Origin: Thiobacillus sp.
Lineage (GTDB): Bacteria > Pseudomonadota > Gammaproteobacteria > Burkholderiales > Thiobacillaceae
Length of the DNA stretch: 52,831 bases
Direction: 5' to 3'
Assembly: GCA_020724415.1 (NCBI GenBank)
Contig: DYHB01000003.1
Location: forward strand, 1-52,831
The notes under the pieces are model-generated. The model worked only from the letters and a program-made list of their open reading frames with translations, searched no databases and was not told where the DNA came from. The number at the start of each line of letters is the position of its first letter. Position 1 is the first letter of the stretch. A program made the position numbers and the translations under genes. Positions 28,682 to 35,360 of the stretch are shown piece after piece.

Positions 28682-30178
28682 TCAGGAAGCCCCGTTCAGG
28701 CGCCCCAGGCTGGCCCGCATCCACCACACGGCCAGCAGTCCCGGCACCGCCATGGCCACGGAAAACAGGAAAAACGCCGGCCAGCCGATACTCTCCGACA
28801 GCACCCCCGACAGGGGACTGACGTAGATCCGTCCCACCGCCGCGAAGGCCGACAGGAGGGCATAGTGGGTGGCCGTGAACTGTCGGTTGCACAAGCCCAT
28901 CAGCAAGGCCACGAAGGCCGCCGTACCCATGCCGCCCGCGATGTTCTCGAAGGCGATGGCGCTCATCAGCATCACGTCGATCTGACTGGCCTGATCCAGG
29001 GCCACGAAACCCAGGTCGAAGGGCGGCAGGGTGAAGCTGCCCCAGGCCCCCTTGCCCGAAACCGCCAGCAACCAGAACCCGAAATTGGACACCAGTTGCA
29101 GGATGCCGAACCACATCAACGCCCGGTAGAGGGAAATCCGCAGCATCAGGGCCCCGGCCAGCAAGGCCCCCAGGATGGTGAGCCAGATGCCGATGATCTT
29201 GTTGACGATGCCCACCTCGGCCTGGCTGAAGCCCAGGCCCTTGATCAGGAAGGGCGTGGTCAGGACCCCGGCAAAGGCGTCCCCCAGTTTGTACAGGATG
29301 ATCAGAAGCAGGAAAGCCAGGGCACCCGACTGGCTGAAATAGCTATCCAGGGAGCGGTTCAGGGTCTCGAAGCCCGCCTGGCGGGCAGCCCAGTAGCCCA
29401 AGGGCAGCGCCGCCGCCAACTGGGCCAGGATGAAGACCAGCTGCAACCACTTGTTGGGGGCGTCCGGGTCCAGGCCCAGGCCCATCAACACCACGCGAGC
29501 CGCAAACCAGCCCACCACGAAGCCGGCCAGCATGGCCGCAAAACCGGCCAGTTCCCGGCGCGGGTTCGACGCCAGGGGCCTCAGCTCACTGGACACCCTG
29601 GGCAACAGGACCAGGGACACCACCGCTGCCGCTGCCATGATGCCCGCCATGGTCAGGTACACCCGGGGCCAGCTCTGCCACTGTTCGGCCCAGATCAGGC
29701 TGATGCCGCCCGACAGGATCATGGCCACCCGATAGCCGAATACCGATAGGGAGCCCCCCAGGCCCCGCTCGTGGGCGGCCAGCACATCGGTACGGTAGGC
29801 ATCCACCACCACGTCCTGGGACGCCGAGAGGAAGGCGATGGCCAAGGCGGCCAGGGCGAACAGAACGGCGTTTTCCTGAATCGACAACCCGGACATCCAC
29901 GCCAGGCCCGCGGCCAGGGCCAACTGGGTGAGGACCAGCCAGCCCCGTCGGCGGCCCAGGAAAGGCGGCTCGAAGCGATCCATCAAGGGCGCCCAGAGGA
30001 ACTTGAAGGTGTAGGGAATGCCCACCAGGCCCAGGAAACCAATGGTGGCGATATCCACGCCATCCACCGTCAGCCACGCCTGCATGGCCTGGCCGGTCAG
30101 GGCCAGAGGCAGGCCGGAGGCGAAACCGAGGAAGAGGACGGCAGCTAAACGTTGTGCGCTCGTAATTGAATGCAACAT
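28682..30178 (-). CDS. ampG: AmpG-family muropeptide MFS transporter
   Basis: A 498-residue permease with about 14 hydrophobic segments. The N-terminus (Gly-Phe-Ala-Ser-Gly-Leu-Pro-Leu) and the Ser-Gln-Asp-Val-Val-Val-Asp-Ala-Tyr motif in helix 4 are typical of AmpG, which imports anhydromuropeptides for cell-wall recycling. ATG 30178 sits a single base from the stop of the upstream ATPase gene (30180-30182), so no native promoter remains between them; transcription must come from within or before that gene. Confidence 0.9.
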   Translation of the reverse strand: MLHSITSAQRLAAVLFLGFASGLPLALTGQAMQAWLTVDGVDIATIGFLGLVGIPYTFKFLWAPLMDRFEPPFLGRRRGWLVLTQLALAAGLAWMSGLSIQENAVLFALAALAIAFLSASQDVVVDAYRTDVLAAHERGLGGSLSVFGYRVAMILSGGISLIWAEQWQSWPRVYLTMAGIMAAAAVVSLVLLPRVSSELRPLASNPRRELAGFAAMLAGFVVGWFAARVVLMGLGLDPDAPNKWLQLVFILAQLAAALPLGYWAARQAGFETLNRSLDSYFSQSGALAFLLLIILYKLGDAFAGVLTTPFLIKGLGFSQAEVGIVNKIIGIWLTILGALLAGALMLRISLYRALMWFGILQLVSNFGFWLLAVSGKGAWGSFTLPPFDLGFVALDQASQIDVMLMSAIAFENIAGGMGTAAFVALLMGLCNRQFTATHYALLSAFAAVGRIYVSPLSGVLSESIGWPAFFLFSVAMAVPGLLAVWWMRASLGRLNGAS

Positions 30179-30179
30179 G

Positions 30180-31631
30180 TCAGACCGTAACCCGCAGCAA
30201 ATTCCGTGCGATCGTGTAGCAGTGCAAGCTGGTTGGCATGAACTCAATCTCTATATTGCCGTCGCTGCCAATTCCGCTTGCGGTCAAGGTAGTCACTACG
30301 GGGCAGCGGATCAATTCATGCTTCGCAGCAAACTCACGCAAGCCGCGCAATTCTCCCCAGTTCGAATAAGCTGCGTCCGACCATTTGATCTCCACTGCAA
30401 ATCGCGGCTTCAGCGTGCGGATATCGATGGAAACCAGGTCCACCTCCAAATCCGAGCGCCCCTGCCTCCAGCGTGCGTAATGCAGCGACTGGATCGTACT
30501 GGTATCGTGCAGCCACTGACTCCATACCGCCGTTTCCGCCAGTGCGCCCATGGCCGGATCGCTGGCAACCGAGTCCCCGAACAGTGCGGCGCGGATCGAC
30601 GGGTTGGTCAGATATACCTTGAACGTCCGTGCGCGCTGCATGCGCCGGGCCGTATCGTCGACACGGTGCACCCGCTTGATGAGAAAGGCCGCTTCCAGAT
30701 ACTCTAGATAATCCAGCAGCTTCTGCTTGCCGATACCCGTATCCTTCGACAGCTTCTCCGGACTCAGCTCGTCGCCAGTGTTGTAGGCCAGCACATTGAA
30801 AAAACGATTCAGTTCCTGGGTATCGTTGATGCCGTACAGGCTTGGCAAATCTTTTAGCAATACCTTGTCCACAATGTCCTGGCGCAGATAACGCGCCGGA
30901 TTCTCGCGTATGGCGGGATTCATCACCGCCTCCGGGAATCCGCCGTAATTCAGATAGTTCACGAACTCGGCGTTCAGCGCCTCGATGCTGCGTGCGCGAT
31001 ACGTCGGCGCACGACCGGGCTCCACCGGTTCCCCGACAATCAGCTCATCCTCACGGCCGGCAAAGGCCAGGTACTCGGAAAACGTCAGCGGAGGCAGAAC
31101 AAAATCGGTGAAGCGCCCAGCACCCGACTCCCGGCTCTTCATGCGCAGCGCCGCCGCTGCCGAACCGCTGGCGACAAACCGGACAGACCGGAAAGTATCG
31201 ACCAGCGATTTGAGATGCACTTCCCAATCCTTCAGGTACTGGATTTCATCAAAGAACACCCACAGGCGCTTACCGTCGCCATGCCGGTGCAGTTCCATGA
31301 AGGTCCGGACCAGATTTTCCAGCGAACGGCCCGAGTACAACGGCGTATCCAGCGAAACATAAAGAATCTCGCTGCCAACCACGCTGTCATCCAGTAGCGC
31401 CTGCACGGCATGCGCCAGCATCACAGTCTTGCCCACCCGGCGCGGGCCGATCAGCACCACTGCACGCGGCACCTCGACGGCCCCAACCAATTGCATGAAG
31501 GGCGCGAAGTACGCCCGTCGCGGCCACTCGCGACGCTCAGCGTCGATGCCACCGCCCGCCACCCACCACGGGTTGTCGAATGCCAGCCGTTTTTGCACGT
31601 CAGCCAGCGGAATTTCGAAGGGCTTCGCCAT
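30180..31631 (-). CDS. AAA_14/DUF4143 ATPase
   Basis: A 483-residue P-loop protein. Walker A is Gly-Pro-Arg-Arg-Val-Gly-Lys-Thr (62-69) and Walker B ends in Asp128-Glu129; a winged-helix segment follows near 300-340. The C-terminal DUF4143 region holds an acidic residue (Asp397) and Val-Glu414-Ile-Lys416, a PD-(D/E)xK-like nuclease pattern. Members are widespread on accessory DNA and their function is not known. ATG 31631 is preferred to TTG 31643; neither has a good ribosome site. G+C is visibly lower than in ampG, in line with acquisition together with the neighbouring restriction-modification gene. Confidence 0.9.
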   Translation of the reverse strand: MAKPFEIPLADVQKRLAFDNPWWVAGGGIDAERREWPRRAYFAPFMQLVGAVEVPRAVVLIGPRRVGKTVMLAHAVQALLDDSVVGSEILYVSLDTPLYSGRSLENLVRTFMELHRHGDGKRLWVFFDEIQYLKDWEVHLKSLVDTFRSVRFVASGSAAAALRMKSRESGAGRFTDFVLPPLTFSEYLAFAGREDELIVGEPVEPGRAPTYRARSIEALNAEFVNYLNYGGFPEAVMNPAIRENPARYLRQDIVDKVLLKDLPSLYGINDTQELNRFFNVLAYNTGDELSPEKLSKDTGIGKQKLLDYLEYLEAAFLIKRVHRVDDTARRMQRARTFKVYLTNPSIRAALFGDSVASDPAMGALAETAVWSQWLHDTSTIQSLHYARWRQGRSDLEVDLVSIDIRTLKPRFAVEIKWSDAAYSNWGELRGLREFAAKHELIRCPVVTTLTASGIGSDGNIEIEFMPTSLHCYTIARNLLRVTV

Positions 31632-31665
31632 AAGAAGAATCAAACCTACTTAAAAAGTCAAAATA

Positions 31666-31694
31666 AGCATAATTATTATTGACTACTTGTGCAA
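31666..31694 (-). promoter_or_regulatory. Candidate sigma-70 promoter for the DUF4143 ATPase (and ampG)
   Basis: On the minus strand TTGCAC (31694-31689), exactly 17 bp, then TATGCT (31671-31666), in a very AT-rich 92-bp gap. It is the most canonical sigma-70 match in this part of the window and would serve the ATPase and, by read-through, ampG. Confidence 0.6.
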
Positions 31695-31723
31695 TTTAAT
31701 ATTTATTATTAATAATCAGCCAG

Positions 31724-34558
31724 TTATCTTGTATCTCTAGCTGCTCTGACACGCCGCTTGGCAGGCTTTTCAGCGGGCAGCAGCGAAACCAGCGCCTGAT
31801 AGCGCTCGAACAGAAAGGCCACACGCTCGGCCTCGCTCTTGAAGGATTTGACGCCATAAGCCGCATCGACGGCGCGGTCGAGTTGCTGGTGGGCCTTGAG
31901 CAGGTCCGGCGGCATGGCCAGCGGGTCGTAGAGGTCTGCCAGGGTCGCACCGGGAAACCGCGTGCGGGCGTCGAGCACGGCCTGGGAGGCAGCCTCGATG
32001 GTGGCGCGCTGCTTGTCGGTGGGGTCGGGCCAGGGGAAGTTGTTGAAGACGATGCCGACGGAGTAGCGGTAGCGGCTTTCAAGACGGCCGCAGACAGCGC
32101 GGACCCACGCCATGTGCATGGTCGATTGCAACACCCCGAGGGGGTATAGGGTGGCGTTGGGCGCAATAAAGAGCAGGTCACTAGCTAGTGTTTCGGGTTG
32201 TTCGAAACCGATGGGAAGGTAGTGCCGCCGCTCGGAACTCACCTTCGGGATAACCAAGTAAGTATCCAAGGGAATGTTTTCGACATGAAACCGCGTTGGC
32301 GTCGCGGCTAGTTTACGAGTCGATTCGGGTGGCTTTTTCTCAGAAATCTTACCTTTTGAATTTGGCCCTTCTCCCAGTCTGAATCGGCGAACTGCTTCTA
32401 CTCTTTTCAGCGTTTCCGGCATCCGCCGCAATTCATCTGGCGCACAGTTGCCAAGCCATAAACACCAGCGTTCATAGCCATTCAGAAATTCGTCGGCACC
32501 TATCCAGCGGCGAAACCATTTATCTGCTTGCGGTTCACGTAACAGAAACTCGGCCTTTTCCGCCGTGGTGAACAGGTAATGTCCACCGTCGATAGGTTTG
32601 TTGCCGATTCCAACTTCCAAGACGGGACAAATGGGTCGTGAGCGGTTTGCCAACACAATGTCCGGTCCGTCCACGAGATACGGATTGATGTTGGTGGCCT
32701 TGATGGCATGAGGCTCCGATTTCGGCGTCTCGTAGTCGAACAGCCATTTCTCGGCCGCGTCCTGCACACCGAAGCCGACGATCACACAATGCACGGCCGC
32801 CTTTCCGCGTGCCTCGCTACTCCACTGGAAGGTGCGGTGGGCGAAGTGGATCTTCACGCCTCTCCCGAACAAATCAGGCCATAACACACCTGCTTGCTCG
32901 CCCTGGGTGATCGAGTTTGTGGAAACGAAAGCTGCCCGCATTTCTGGATGCGGCACCATGTATTCAGCCGCCTTGCGATACCAACAGGCGACGTAATCCA
33001 GCAGGCCCGAATTCTTGGTACCCTCAAATACCGCCGCCACCTCTACACGTTGTGCCTCAGTTAAAAACTTTGCCCCAATAAACGGCGGATTCCCCAACAG
33101 ATAATCCAGCCGCTCGGCCGGTATCACGTCATTCCAGTCCAGCGTCAGGGCGTTGCCGTGGACAATGTGGGGCGCGTGCTTGAGCGGCAGGCGGACGTAG
33201 TAGTCGCCGAATTCCTCGGACACGCGCATGTTCATCTGGTGGTCGGTGAGCCAGAGCGCAACCTCGGCGATGCGCGCCGGCCATTCCTCGATCTCGATGC
33301 CGTGGAACTGGTCCACGTCAATCTGGACGAGCTGGAAGATGTCGAGGTGCATCTGGCCGGTGTCGCGGACATGGCGCAGCACTTCGAGTTCGAGCAGGCG
33401 CAGCTCGCGGTAGGCGATGACCAAGAAGTTGCCGCAGCCGCAAGCGGGGTCGAGGAAGCGCAGGCCGGCGAGCTTTTTCAGGAATTCGAACAGCTTGTTC
33501 TTGTTGTGCCTGACCTTCTCGAACTCGGCCCACAGGGCGTCTAGGAACAGCGGCCGGATCAGGCGCAGGATGTGGGCTTCACTGGTGTAGTGGGCGCCGA
33601 TGGCTCGCCGCGCCTTGGCGTCCATGATGCTCTGGAACAAGCTGCCGAACACGGCGGGCGAGATGCGGCTCCAGTCGAGAGCGCAGCAGTCGAGCAGGGT
33701 TTCGCGCATGGCCGAGTCGAAGGCGGCGATGGGCAGTTGCTCGCGGTAGAGCTGGCCGTTGACGTAGGGGAAGGCGGCGAGCTGTTCGTCGAGGGCCTTC
33801 TGGCGCTTGTCGTGCGCGGTGTCGAGTACCTGCCAGAGTTGGGCGAGGTGCATGCCGAGGTCGCTGCCGTCCGGTTCGGTGCGGGTTTCGATGTAGTCCT
33901 GGAACTGCCGCTTTTCGTAAATGGCGGTGTCTTCGGCGAACAGGCAGAACAGGACGCGAACCAGGAAGACTTCCAGCGCGTGGCCTTCGTAGCCGCTGGC
34001 CCTGAGCTGGTCGTGCAGGCGGCCGAGGTGTTCGGCGGCCTTGGCGTTGACCGGGTCTTCCTGGCCGAAGTGGCGGGTCTGGTAGCCGGCGATGAAGCCG
34101 AACTGGCGGATGTGCTTGGGGAAGTCCTTGAGCGCGAATTCGTAATAGCCCTCACCCGGCGCTTTCGCGCCACCCTCTCCCGCTTGCGGGCGAGGGTTTT
34201 CAAGGTCGTAGAGGCGGATGCGGGCGAAGTCGGAGACGACGACATACTTGGGCAGGTCGCGTTCCTTCAGGCCGGGGAAGTAGTCGAGCGCCTGGGTGTA
34301 GGCCTTGTCGAGGTCCTTGCCGCGCGACTTGTGCTCGACCAGCAGGGTGCCTTTCCAGAGCAGGTCGATGAAGCCCTGCCTGTCGCCGAGCTTGCGGACC
34401 GGTTCCTCAAAGCTGGCGACGCGCTTGCTGGAGATGCCGAAGACGTTGAAGAACTCGATCCAGAACGGCTTGGCCTGGGCGTTTTCGGATTCGGCATCGG
34501 CCCATTCGCGGGCGAAGGCGTGGGCGCGGCTGCGGATTTCGTTCCAGGACAGCGGCAC
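31724..34558 (-). CDS. MmeI-like single-chain restriction-modification enzyme (type IIL)
   Basis: A 944-residue protein with the MmeI layout. The N-terminal nuclease domain has Asp65-x9-Glu75-x-Lys77, the same spacing as the MmeI catalytic D-x9-ExK, so cleavage activity is plausible. A helical spacer follows, then an adenine-N6 methyltransferase core with motif I Asp-Pro-Ala-Cys-Gly-Cys-Gly (about 369) and motif IV Asn489-Pro-Pro-Phe, a target-recognition region (about 500-800) and a helical C-terminus. Such enzymes modify one strand and cut about 20 bp away. GTG 34558 is supported by AGGGAG upstream. It begins 19 bp after xth. The recognition region is lower in G+C than the rest, and a palindromic element is inserted in frame near residues 119-137. 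Confidence 0.92.
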   Translation of the reverse strand: MPLSWNEIRSRAHAFAREWADAESENAQAKPFWIEFFNVFGISSKRVASFEEPVRKLGDRQGFIDLLWKGTLLVEHKSRGKDLDKAYTQALDYFPGLKERDLPKYVVVSDFARIRLYDLENPRPQAGEGGAKAPGEGYYEFALKDFPKHIRQFGFIAGYQTRHFGQEDPVNAKAAEHLGRLHDQLRASGYEGHALEVFLVRVLFCLFAEDTAIYEKRQFQDYIETRTEPDGSDLGMHLAQLWQVLDTAHDKRQKALDEQLAAFPYVNGQLYREQLPIAAFDSAMRETLLDCCALDWSRISPAVFGSLFQSIMDAKARRAIGAHYTSEAHILRLIRPLFLDALWAEFEKVRHNKNKLFEFLKKLAGLRFLDPACGCGNFLVIAYRELRLLELEVLRHVRDTGQMHLDIFQLVQIDVDQFHGIEIEEWPARIAEVALWLTDHQMNMRVSEEFGDYYVRLPLKHAPHIVHGNALTLDWNDVIPAERLDYLLGNPPFIGAKFLTEAQRVEVAAVFEGTKNSGLLDYVACWYRKAAEYMVPHPEMRAAFVSTNSITQGEQAGVLWPDLFGRGVKIHFAHRTFQWSSEARGKAAVHCVIVGFGVQDAAEKWLFDYETPKSEPHAIKATNINPYLVDGPDIVLANRSRPICPVLEVGIGNKPIDGGHYLFTTAEKAEFLLREPQADKWFRRWIGADEFLNGYERWCLWLGNCAPDELRRMPETLKRVEAVRRFRLGEGPNSKGKISEKKPPESTRKLAATPTRFHVENIPLDTYLVIPKVSSERRHYLPIGFEQPETLASDLLFIAPNATLYPLGVLQSTMHMAWVRAVCGRLESRYRYSVGIVFNNFPWPDPTDKQRATIEAASQAVLDARTRFPGATLADLYDPLAMPPDLLKAHQQLDRAVDAAYGVKSFKSEAERVAFLFERYQALVSLLPAEKPAKRRVRAARDTR
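34158..34197. repeat. REP-like double palindrome inside the MmeI-like gene
   Basis: Two hairpins side by side: GGCGC-TTTC-GCGCC (34158-34171), and a 12-bp stem with one mismatch around a TT loop (34172-34183 with 34186-34197), flanked by CCCTCACCC. The CCCTCTCCCGC / GCGGGCGAGGG arms look like the intergenic palindromic repeats common in proteobacteria. Here the element is translated as a Gly/Pro/Ala-rich segment. Confidence 0.75.
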
Positions 34559-34577
34559 GGTGTCTCCCTGACGTTGT

Positions 34578-35360
34578 TTATTTCAGGGCGTAATCGTAAT
34601 CCACGATCAACGGCGCATGGTCGGAAAAGCGTTCATCCTTGTACACGCTGGCGGACTTGGCCGTAGCCGCGATACCCGGCGTGGCGATCTGATAATCGAT
34701 TCGCCAGCCGACGTTCTTGGCCCAGGCCTGGCCGCGGTTGGACCACCAGGTGTAGCCTTCCCCTTCGGCATGGGGATAGAGGCGACGATAGACGTCAACC
34801 CAGCCCAGTTGCTCGAACAGCCCGCCAATCCAGGCCCGTTCCTCGGGCAGGAATCCCGAGTTTTTCTGGTTGCCCTTGGCATTCTTGATGTCCATCGCCG
34901 TGTGGGCGATGTTCCAGTCGCCGCACACGATCACCTCCCGGCCGCTGGCGATGAGTTGCTCCAGGTGGGGCCTGAAGTGGTCCATGAAGGCAAATTTCGC
35001 GACCTGCCGTTCCGGACCGCTGGAGCCGGAGGGCAGGTAGACGGACACGATCGACAGGTTGCCGAAACGTACTTCGATGTAGCGTCCCTCGCCGTCGATG
35101 TCGGGAATGCCCAGGCCTTCGATGATCGCGTCCGGTTGCCTGCGCGACCAGATGCCGACGCCGCTGTAGCCCTTCTTCTCGGCGTAATGGAAATAGCCAT
35201 GGTAGCCGGGCGGATTGAGCATGCCGGCCTCCAGGTCGGTCACCTGGGCTTTCAATTCCTGCAGGCAGACCACGTCCGCGCCGGAGCCGGCCAACCACTC
35301 CAATACGCCCTTCTTGGCGGCGGAGCGAATGCCGTTGAGGTTCAGGGATACAATGCGCAT
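34578..35360 (-). CDS. xthA: Exodeoxyribonuclease III
   Basis: XthA is the AP endonuclease and 3'-5' exonuclease of base-excision repair. The 260-residue protein has the exonuclease/endonuclease/phosphatase motifs: Leu-Asn-Leu-Asn-Gly-Ile-Arg at the N-terminus, Leu-Gln-Glu-Leu-Lys (metal-binding Glu), Gly-Asp-Trp-Asn-Ile-Ala-His, and the C-terminal Ser-Asp-His-Ala-Pro catalytic triad. It is divergent from pyrE with only 22 bp between start codons, so both promoters must lie within the opposite gene or overlap each other. Confidence 0.95.

Follow-up and report, generated by a model that had tools for sequence, protein, structure and literature searches.

The window, a stretch of 52,831 nucleotides from a Thiobacillus sp. 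contig, carries a two-gene island that lies with both of its borders on the minus strand, in the order xth, MmeI-like gene, a 92-bp gap, DUF4143 ATPase gene and ampG. The upstream border is xth (exodeoxyribonuclease III, 34578..35360; NCBIfam TIGR00633, 252.9 bits, above cut-off) and the downstream border is ampG (muropeptide transporter, 28682..30178; NCBIfam TIGR00901, 451.4 bits, above cut-off). The island codes for an intact MmeI-type (Type IIL/IIG) restriction-modification enzyme of 944 residues (31724..34558, GTG start; matches in Pfam, in PADLOC and to PDB 5hr4) and for a DUF4143 ATPase of the PDC-S01 family with 483 residues (30180..31631, ATG start). Their coding genes are spaced by the gap at 31632..31723, the putative promoter and operator region of the ATPase gene. 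An earlier note on this DNA had placed the two genes between xth and ampG, which NCBIfam and Pfam bear out. Its description of the gap as very AT-rich agrees with a G+C content of 22.8%, and ampG lies indeed one base from the ATPase stop, base 30179 alone preceding the ampG ATG. The lower G+C that it ascribed to the island applies to the ATPase gene (59.2%) and to the C-terminal half of the MmeI gene (57.2%), but not to the N-terminal half of the latter, whose 64.2% equals the window mean (64.2%). The MmeI-type gene begins 19 bp downstream of xth and is probably read from the xth transcript.

The MmeI-type protein is a single chain with nuclease, helical spacer, N6 methylase, target recognition (TRD) and C domains, as found in Type IIL enzymes. 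All five Pfam MmeI domains (MmeI_N, hel, Mtase, TRD and C) score above cut-off, the PADLOC REase_MTase_IIG match reaches 1206 bits, and the match to the MmeI structure 5hr4 covers the full length (1194 bits). Catalytic residues D65, E75 and K77 align with D70, E80 and K82 of MmeI; the intact D-x9-ExK site read earlier from the sequence is present as D65-x9-E75-x-K77. Enzymes of the Type IIL (MmeI) family methylate one strand of their site and, where the site is unmethylated, cleave about 20 bases away. In the window enzyme, a single predicted protein would combine methylation of an adenine within its site with distant cleavage of unmethylated DNA. Its specificity was predicted from residues aligned with 5hr4, using the recognition code given in the available text of PMC4833311. 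In this reading K645 specifies C at position 2, K751/D773 specify G at position 3, L774 with R810 specifies G at position 4, position 5 is the methylated A and E806/R808 specify C at position 6. The predicted site is nCGGAC, position 1 not being predictable. The gene features an in-frame insertion of about 14 codons (34155-34205) that is absent in most aligned relatives and is made of the palindromic repeat CACCCTCTCCCGCTTGCGGGCGAGGG (34171..34196, plus strand). This repeat is single-copy in the window genome at up to one mismatch; elements similar to it are found in more than 10 other fetched loci.

The ATPase is composed of AAA_14 and DUF4143 domains (Pfam), with Walker A at residue 62 and DEIQ at 128. 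Its best PADLOC match is PDC-S01 (E 2.2e-53), and the PADLOC PDC-S01 models together with AAA_14/DUF4143 assign it to this family. An AlphaFold model computed with 88 homologues (pLDDT 89.7, pTM 0.90) has an AAA_14 nucleotide-binding domain (NBD), a helical domain, a winged helix (WHD) and a C-terminal PD-(D/E)xK domain. Over residues 30-351 the model superposes on the corresponding parts (NBD, helical domain, winged helix) of STAND proteins and of archaeal ATPases. The best match is WRR4A (Z 15.6, rmsd 4.3, 267 residues aligned), along with CED-4 (Z 15.5, rmsd 4.7, 290 residues), 2qen (Z 14.7, rmsd 4.5, 273 residues) and 2fna (Z 14.2, rmsd 4.2, 275 residues), so that the predicted protein has the NBD-helical-WHD core of STAND NTPases. 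The definition of STAND NTPases includes a C-terminal sensor of superstructure-forming repeats. Residues 360-482 of the model form a mixed alpha/beta domain carrying D397/E413/K415 and, as the model has no C-terminal repeat sensor, the ATPase is not filed as a canonical STAND sensor. The order of elements in residues 360-450 is that of a PD-(D/E)xK domain in the model. D397 and E413 are invariant in the 88 sequences and K415 is found in at least 90% of them; counted with the first Met, these residues are D398/E414/K416, the PD-(D/E)xK-like motif that had already been recognized in the ATPase. Searched against PDB sequences, the ATPase alignment returned nothing beyond marginal matches to ORC4 and ClpX. 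Assignment to the MADS system was rejected, the ATPase matching mad8 only at E 2.7e-4.

The region directly upstream of the ATPase gene is conserved in relatives, whereas the DNA further upstream is not. Its operator-like element GCTTATTTTGACTTTTTAAG (31649..31668, minus strand) is a single match at up to 3 mismatches in the 2.94-Mb assembly; a looser motif pattern had one match elsewhere in the same genome and missed the window copy, which differs from the pattern by one mismatch. The corresponding motif of the window's clade, tTAATtTGACAntTTAaGc, is found in 25/25 upstream regions of this inner clade, as compared to 0/25 shuffled and 1/25 downstream regions (cross-validation 23/25 vs 1/25). 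A wider, outer group of 62 loci codes for proteins that are 48-62% identical to the window's. The 22-bp palindrome TAAGATCAATnnATTGATCTTA, which has GATC in both arms, is present upstream in 50 of these loci and absent from 12, and it occurs twice in 28 of the 62, the copies being mostly ~41-42 bp apart. It was not found in 62 shuffled upstream, 59 downstream or 62 coding control sequences. Two-fold cross-validation of the outer motif gave 47/62 vs 0, and its model, run over 1.25 Mb of loci, gave 81 matches within 200 bp upstream vs 14 elsewhere. Among loci outside the model, the outer motif was found in four of seven viral loci (L298, L300, L301, L302) and in plasmid locus L305; it was not found in L303 and L304, and L299 has no upstream DNA. 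In L194 and L217 the upstream DNA is too short for this test.

The position of the outer motif relative to the start codon is similar across many phyla, and clade-specific motif sequences track the protein clades. Outer and inner motifs differ, being linked by position and partial half-site likeness only. In the recognition-helix region of the protein, K-N-T-I/L prevails in the wider group, and many sequences of the window's clade have K-Q-K/R-L or R-x-K/R-L instead; this change appears to go with the change of motif between groups. Binding of the ATPase protein itself would best account for a motif whose place before one gene is kept over many phyla while its sequence varies from one protein clade to another. 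Together with the predicted STAND-like winged helix, the upstream element suggests autoregulation. Palindromes of other sequence precede more distant DUF4143 genes, for example TTGTCCTTTTaAAAAGGACAA in L047 with a near copy in L049, and a strong inverted repeat is found upstream of 8/18 of these distant genes vs 0.8 expected. The near-identical palindromes of L047 and L049 (TTGTCCTTnT..AnAAGGACAA), located upstream of a different DUF4143 subfamily, suggest that operators may be general in the DUF4143 family. The conserved operator-like element of the ATPase subfamily is new here: a literature search covering mostly open-access journal papers found no described operator or autoregulation of the DUF4143/PDC-S01 family.

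The genomic setting of the island was defined by a survey of xth regions taken from genomes of the host's family, of which 98 of 100 sampled have an xth match. The survey comprised 69 stretches with xth, and dropping the 13 without ampG on the stretch left 56 intervals. The xth-ampG interval is occupied in 33/56 and empty in 23/56. In the empty intervals xth and ampG are separated by no more than 231 bp, in many cases by 14-41 bp, or overlap, and in the occupied ones 747 to 7440 bp lie between them. Presence of cargo between two genes that elsewhere lie near each other fits the view, put forward in the earlier note, of an island inserted between housekeeping genes. Xth is followed by MmeI (at least 45% identity) in 12/69 stretches, by weaker Type IIG-like genes in 7/69 and by DUF4143 in 4/69, the window being one further case. 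Pfam annotation of 20 cargo ORFs, selected among those called by a codon-score picker, identified Eco57I-type, Schlafen AlbA_2 with HATPase_c_4, Fic, HepT-like, DUF3800, DUF1828 and AAA_21 proteins, and also non-defence cargo (MscS channels, a cytochrome, a GGDEF-EAL protein, a kinase-receiver protein). The ampG-side position is occupied by other genes in relatives. Judged from its gene content, the interval is a defence-rich exchange slot in the host family that is not purely devoted to defence, and it offers a natural series of empty, R-M-only and R-M plus ATPase states. In two slots (L132, L152) a ~1385-aa gene and, no more than 3 bp behind it, a 575-579-aa gene possibly form an operon pair; Pfam, run on L132 only, identifies the former as Eco57I-type and the latter as Schlafen AlbA_2 with HATPase_c_4.

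The combination of xth, MmeI and ATPase genes is found in the window and in three relatives (G028, G068, G004), always in the xth-ampG slot. Its arrangement is more than chance because the same two genes recur in the same slot and order in other genera. This conserved order would fit a true two-gene defence unit, in which the ATPase-nuclease stands guard over the MmeI enzyme or steps in upon its failure, a PrrC-like logic. In addition, a single DNA block extends from the C-terminal part of MmeI through the gap to the ATPase stop, with identities to the window of 79% (G028), 80% (G068), 74% (G004) and, over a shorter length, 76% (G098); DNA upstream of the block is at 71-74% in G068. Judged from the block alignable in G028, G068 and G004, the MmeI-ATPase junction was probably made once and then, on one occasion or more, transferred whole or passed on by descent. 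Conservation of the ATPase among slot relatives (83-90% identity, vs 68-80% for xth) and a second, distant DUF4143 gene adjoining MmeI also speak for such a unit. The latter, in G088 (L164), has 31% identity and is found between MmeI and ampG in opposite orientation with an imperfect palindrome upstream. Against such a unit, MmeI is broken in two of the three relatives, by a stop at codon 393 (G068) or a split near codon 323 (G004), and is replaced in G098, where the ATPase gene follows a different Type IIG gene and only about the last 37 MmeI codons remain; yet the ATPase reading frame is open in all of these, as in the window and G028. Conversely, in G008 the ATPase position is taken by a Fic gene, while MmeI, although interrupted further along, has an N-terminus 94-97% identical to the window's. 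The ATPase gene also has its own upstream element. Note that G086 was not counted as a pair: the last 47 ATPase codons are at a contig edge, 836 bp from ampG, and MmeI is on another contig. No such pair was found outside the xth-ampG slot among 80 ATPase and 45 MmeI loci. MmeI was near the ATPase in 1/80 public-genome ATPase loci, namely L170, which is from the same genome as slot member G004 (with L170 set aside, 49/79 loci had flanks of 3 kb or more on each side). DUF4143 was beside MmeI in 0/28 order-level loci (30/399 genomes matched, two being host-family members) and 0/17 class-level loci (15/274 genomes matched, own genome included), with flanks of at most 1.5 kb a side. Co-occurrence of the two families in 100 host-family genomes is above chance (6/10 vs 12/90, Fisher p 0.002; the MmeI list being 18 genomes hand-picked at alignment E below 1e-100 and at least 45% identity), but leaving out the four same-slot genomes gives 2/6 vs 12/90 (p 0.21). 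Adjacency independent of one chromosomal site is thus not recurrent, as would characterize a dedicated MmeI-DUF4143 system, and an obligate unit is rejected. The combined unit of the earlier note is largely unsupported, and a guard or second-effector pairing appears improbable; two independent modules in an exchange slot are more likely. Coupling of xth and MmeI as a general rule was likewise rejected, with no xth match flanking the 45 order- and class-level loci (at most 1.5 kb a side).

An independent ATPase gene could also be a selfish or stability gene, toxin-antitoxin-like, with no part in phage defence. It is found as a single gene at many places, and its neighbours, picked by a crude ORF rule with misses likely, are diverse and in many cases housekeeping genes. 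Upstream of the ATPase, three loci (L160, L161 and L171) carry a second, decayed 5'-end of the downstream UvrD/AddA-like helicase gene; in L196 and L243 the ATPase is flanked on both sides by repeats of 65-80 bp (~97%). Flanking repeats at E 1e-3 are present in 10/77 loci vs 1/77 mismatched pairs, some being likely simple repeats. Such flanking copies resemble an insertion with long target duplication, a process discussed for restriction-modification genes in the available text of PMC3874152. A plasmid megablast with the whole island gave one match, a 76-base methylase stretch. A recurrent partner of the stand-alone ATPase was rejected, as no PADLOC family exceeds 1/72 upstream or 4/69 downstream neighbours. 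Against a stability gene, no antitoxin partner is seen, PADLOC lists PDC-S01 as a candidate defence gene, and the gene adjoins Type III methyltransferases or other candidates in L182, L184, L188 and L234 (in L182 and L184, from Polaromonas and Rhodoferax, the methyltransferase genes are directly downstream). A purely selfish role is rather unlikely. The upstream palindromes might be insertion targets or binding sites of another widespread regulator instead of autoregulatory operators, as two Bacteroidota loci (L241, L243) have the upstream sequence repeated downstream. This is improbable given that the motif is absent downstream in 59/59 outer loci, keeps a similar position to the start codon over many phyla, follows the protein clades in its clade-specific sequences and, in the window, is unique in its genome.

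The explanation that we consider probable overall is an exchange slot with two modules that act in parallel, a Type IIL enzyme and an autonomous PDC-S01 ATPase that represses itself and is switched by a cue. The slot takes up exchangeable defence and toxin-antitoxin-like genes in the host family. The ATPase gene would be autonomous, the 92-bp gap supplying a promoter of its own together with the conserved operator. Most likely, the ATPase represses its own gene by placing its winged helix on the operator. A cue (foreign DNA or a phage product) would switch it to attack nucleic acid, while the MmeI-type enzyme would work alongside it and not as part of one machine. The sequences themselves show the modules, the slot, the separate occurrence of the modules elsewhere and the conserved upstream element; DNA binding by the ATPase, derepression, nuclease activity and the defence role are what we infer. 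A more specific version, which we put forward tentatively as a possibility, is that PDC-S01 is a single-gene switch whose winged helix silences the gene at a palindromic operator co-evolving with the protein across many phyla, foreign DNA or a phage factor freeing the nuclease. Release of the protein from the operator would then both raise its level and free the nuclease. If so, paired sites ~41 bp apart (four helical turns) would allow looping and the GATC in both palindrome arms would allow methylation sensing. A Thermus thermophilus study reports, in its available text, a DUF4143 gene, possibly of another subfamily, that is up 6.6-fold with a plasmid, only with Argonaute present, which gives weak support to inducibility. 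Self-regulation of PDC-S01 is the new, testable part. The operator offers a way into how this very abundant but still unvalidated candidate might be controlled and marks promoters of the family at the sequence level, and it is usable as a DNA probe and as a reporter for an inducing phage factor.

Both components of the island are of known kinds, the defence slot here holding one more Type IIL enzyme and one more PDC-S01 gene. With MmeI the enzyme shares full-length homology, the same five domains and intact D..ExK and methylase (Type IIL; PDB 5hr4; available text of PMC4833311). Unlike MmeI, it carries the repeat-derived insertion and different target-recognition residues, with predicted site nCGGAC vs TCCRAC for MmeI in the same text. 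The word undescribed, used in the earlier note for a combined defence unit, was too strong: the ATPase belongs to PDC-S01, already a candidate from guilt-by-embedding in other immune systems, although most such candidates still await experimental validation (PMC12988326, available text). According to the accessible part of the literature, PDC-S01 has been ranked fourth in frequency among the defences of prokaryotes, and in a rumen study it outnumbers every other single locus (PMC13356809). The window ATPase resembles PDC-S01 as described in the available text of PMC12988326 in being fused to a PD-(D/E)xK domain, but its gene lies beside a restriction system and not embedded inside it. With STAND NTPases (Avs, CED-4, plant NLRs) and the archaeal 2fna/2qen it shares the predicted NBD-helical-WHD fold of residues 30-351, differing from STAND NTPases in that its modelled C-terminus is nuclease-like instead of a repeat sensor. 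Its putative control is reminiscent of the RptR-regulated Type I R-M defence island, whose defence genes are repressed through promoter repeats according to the available text of PMC12255303. RptR is a separate small repressor in that text, whereas the putative repressor in the window is the ATPase itself.
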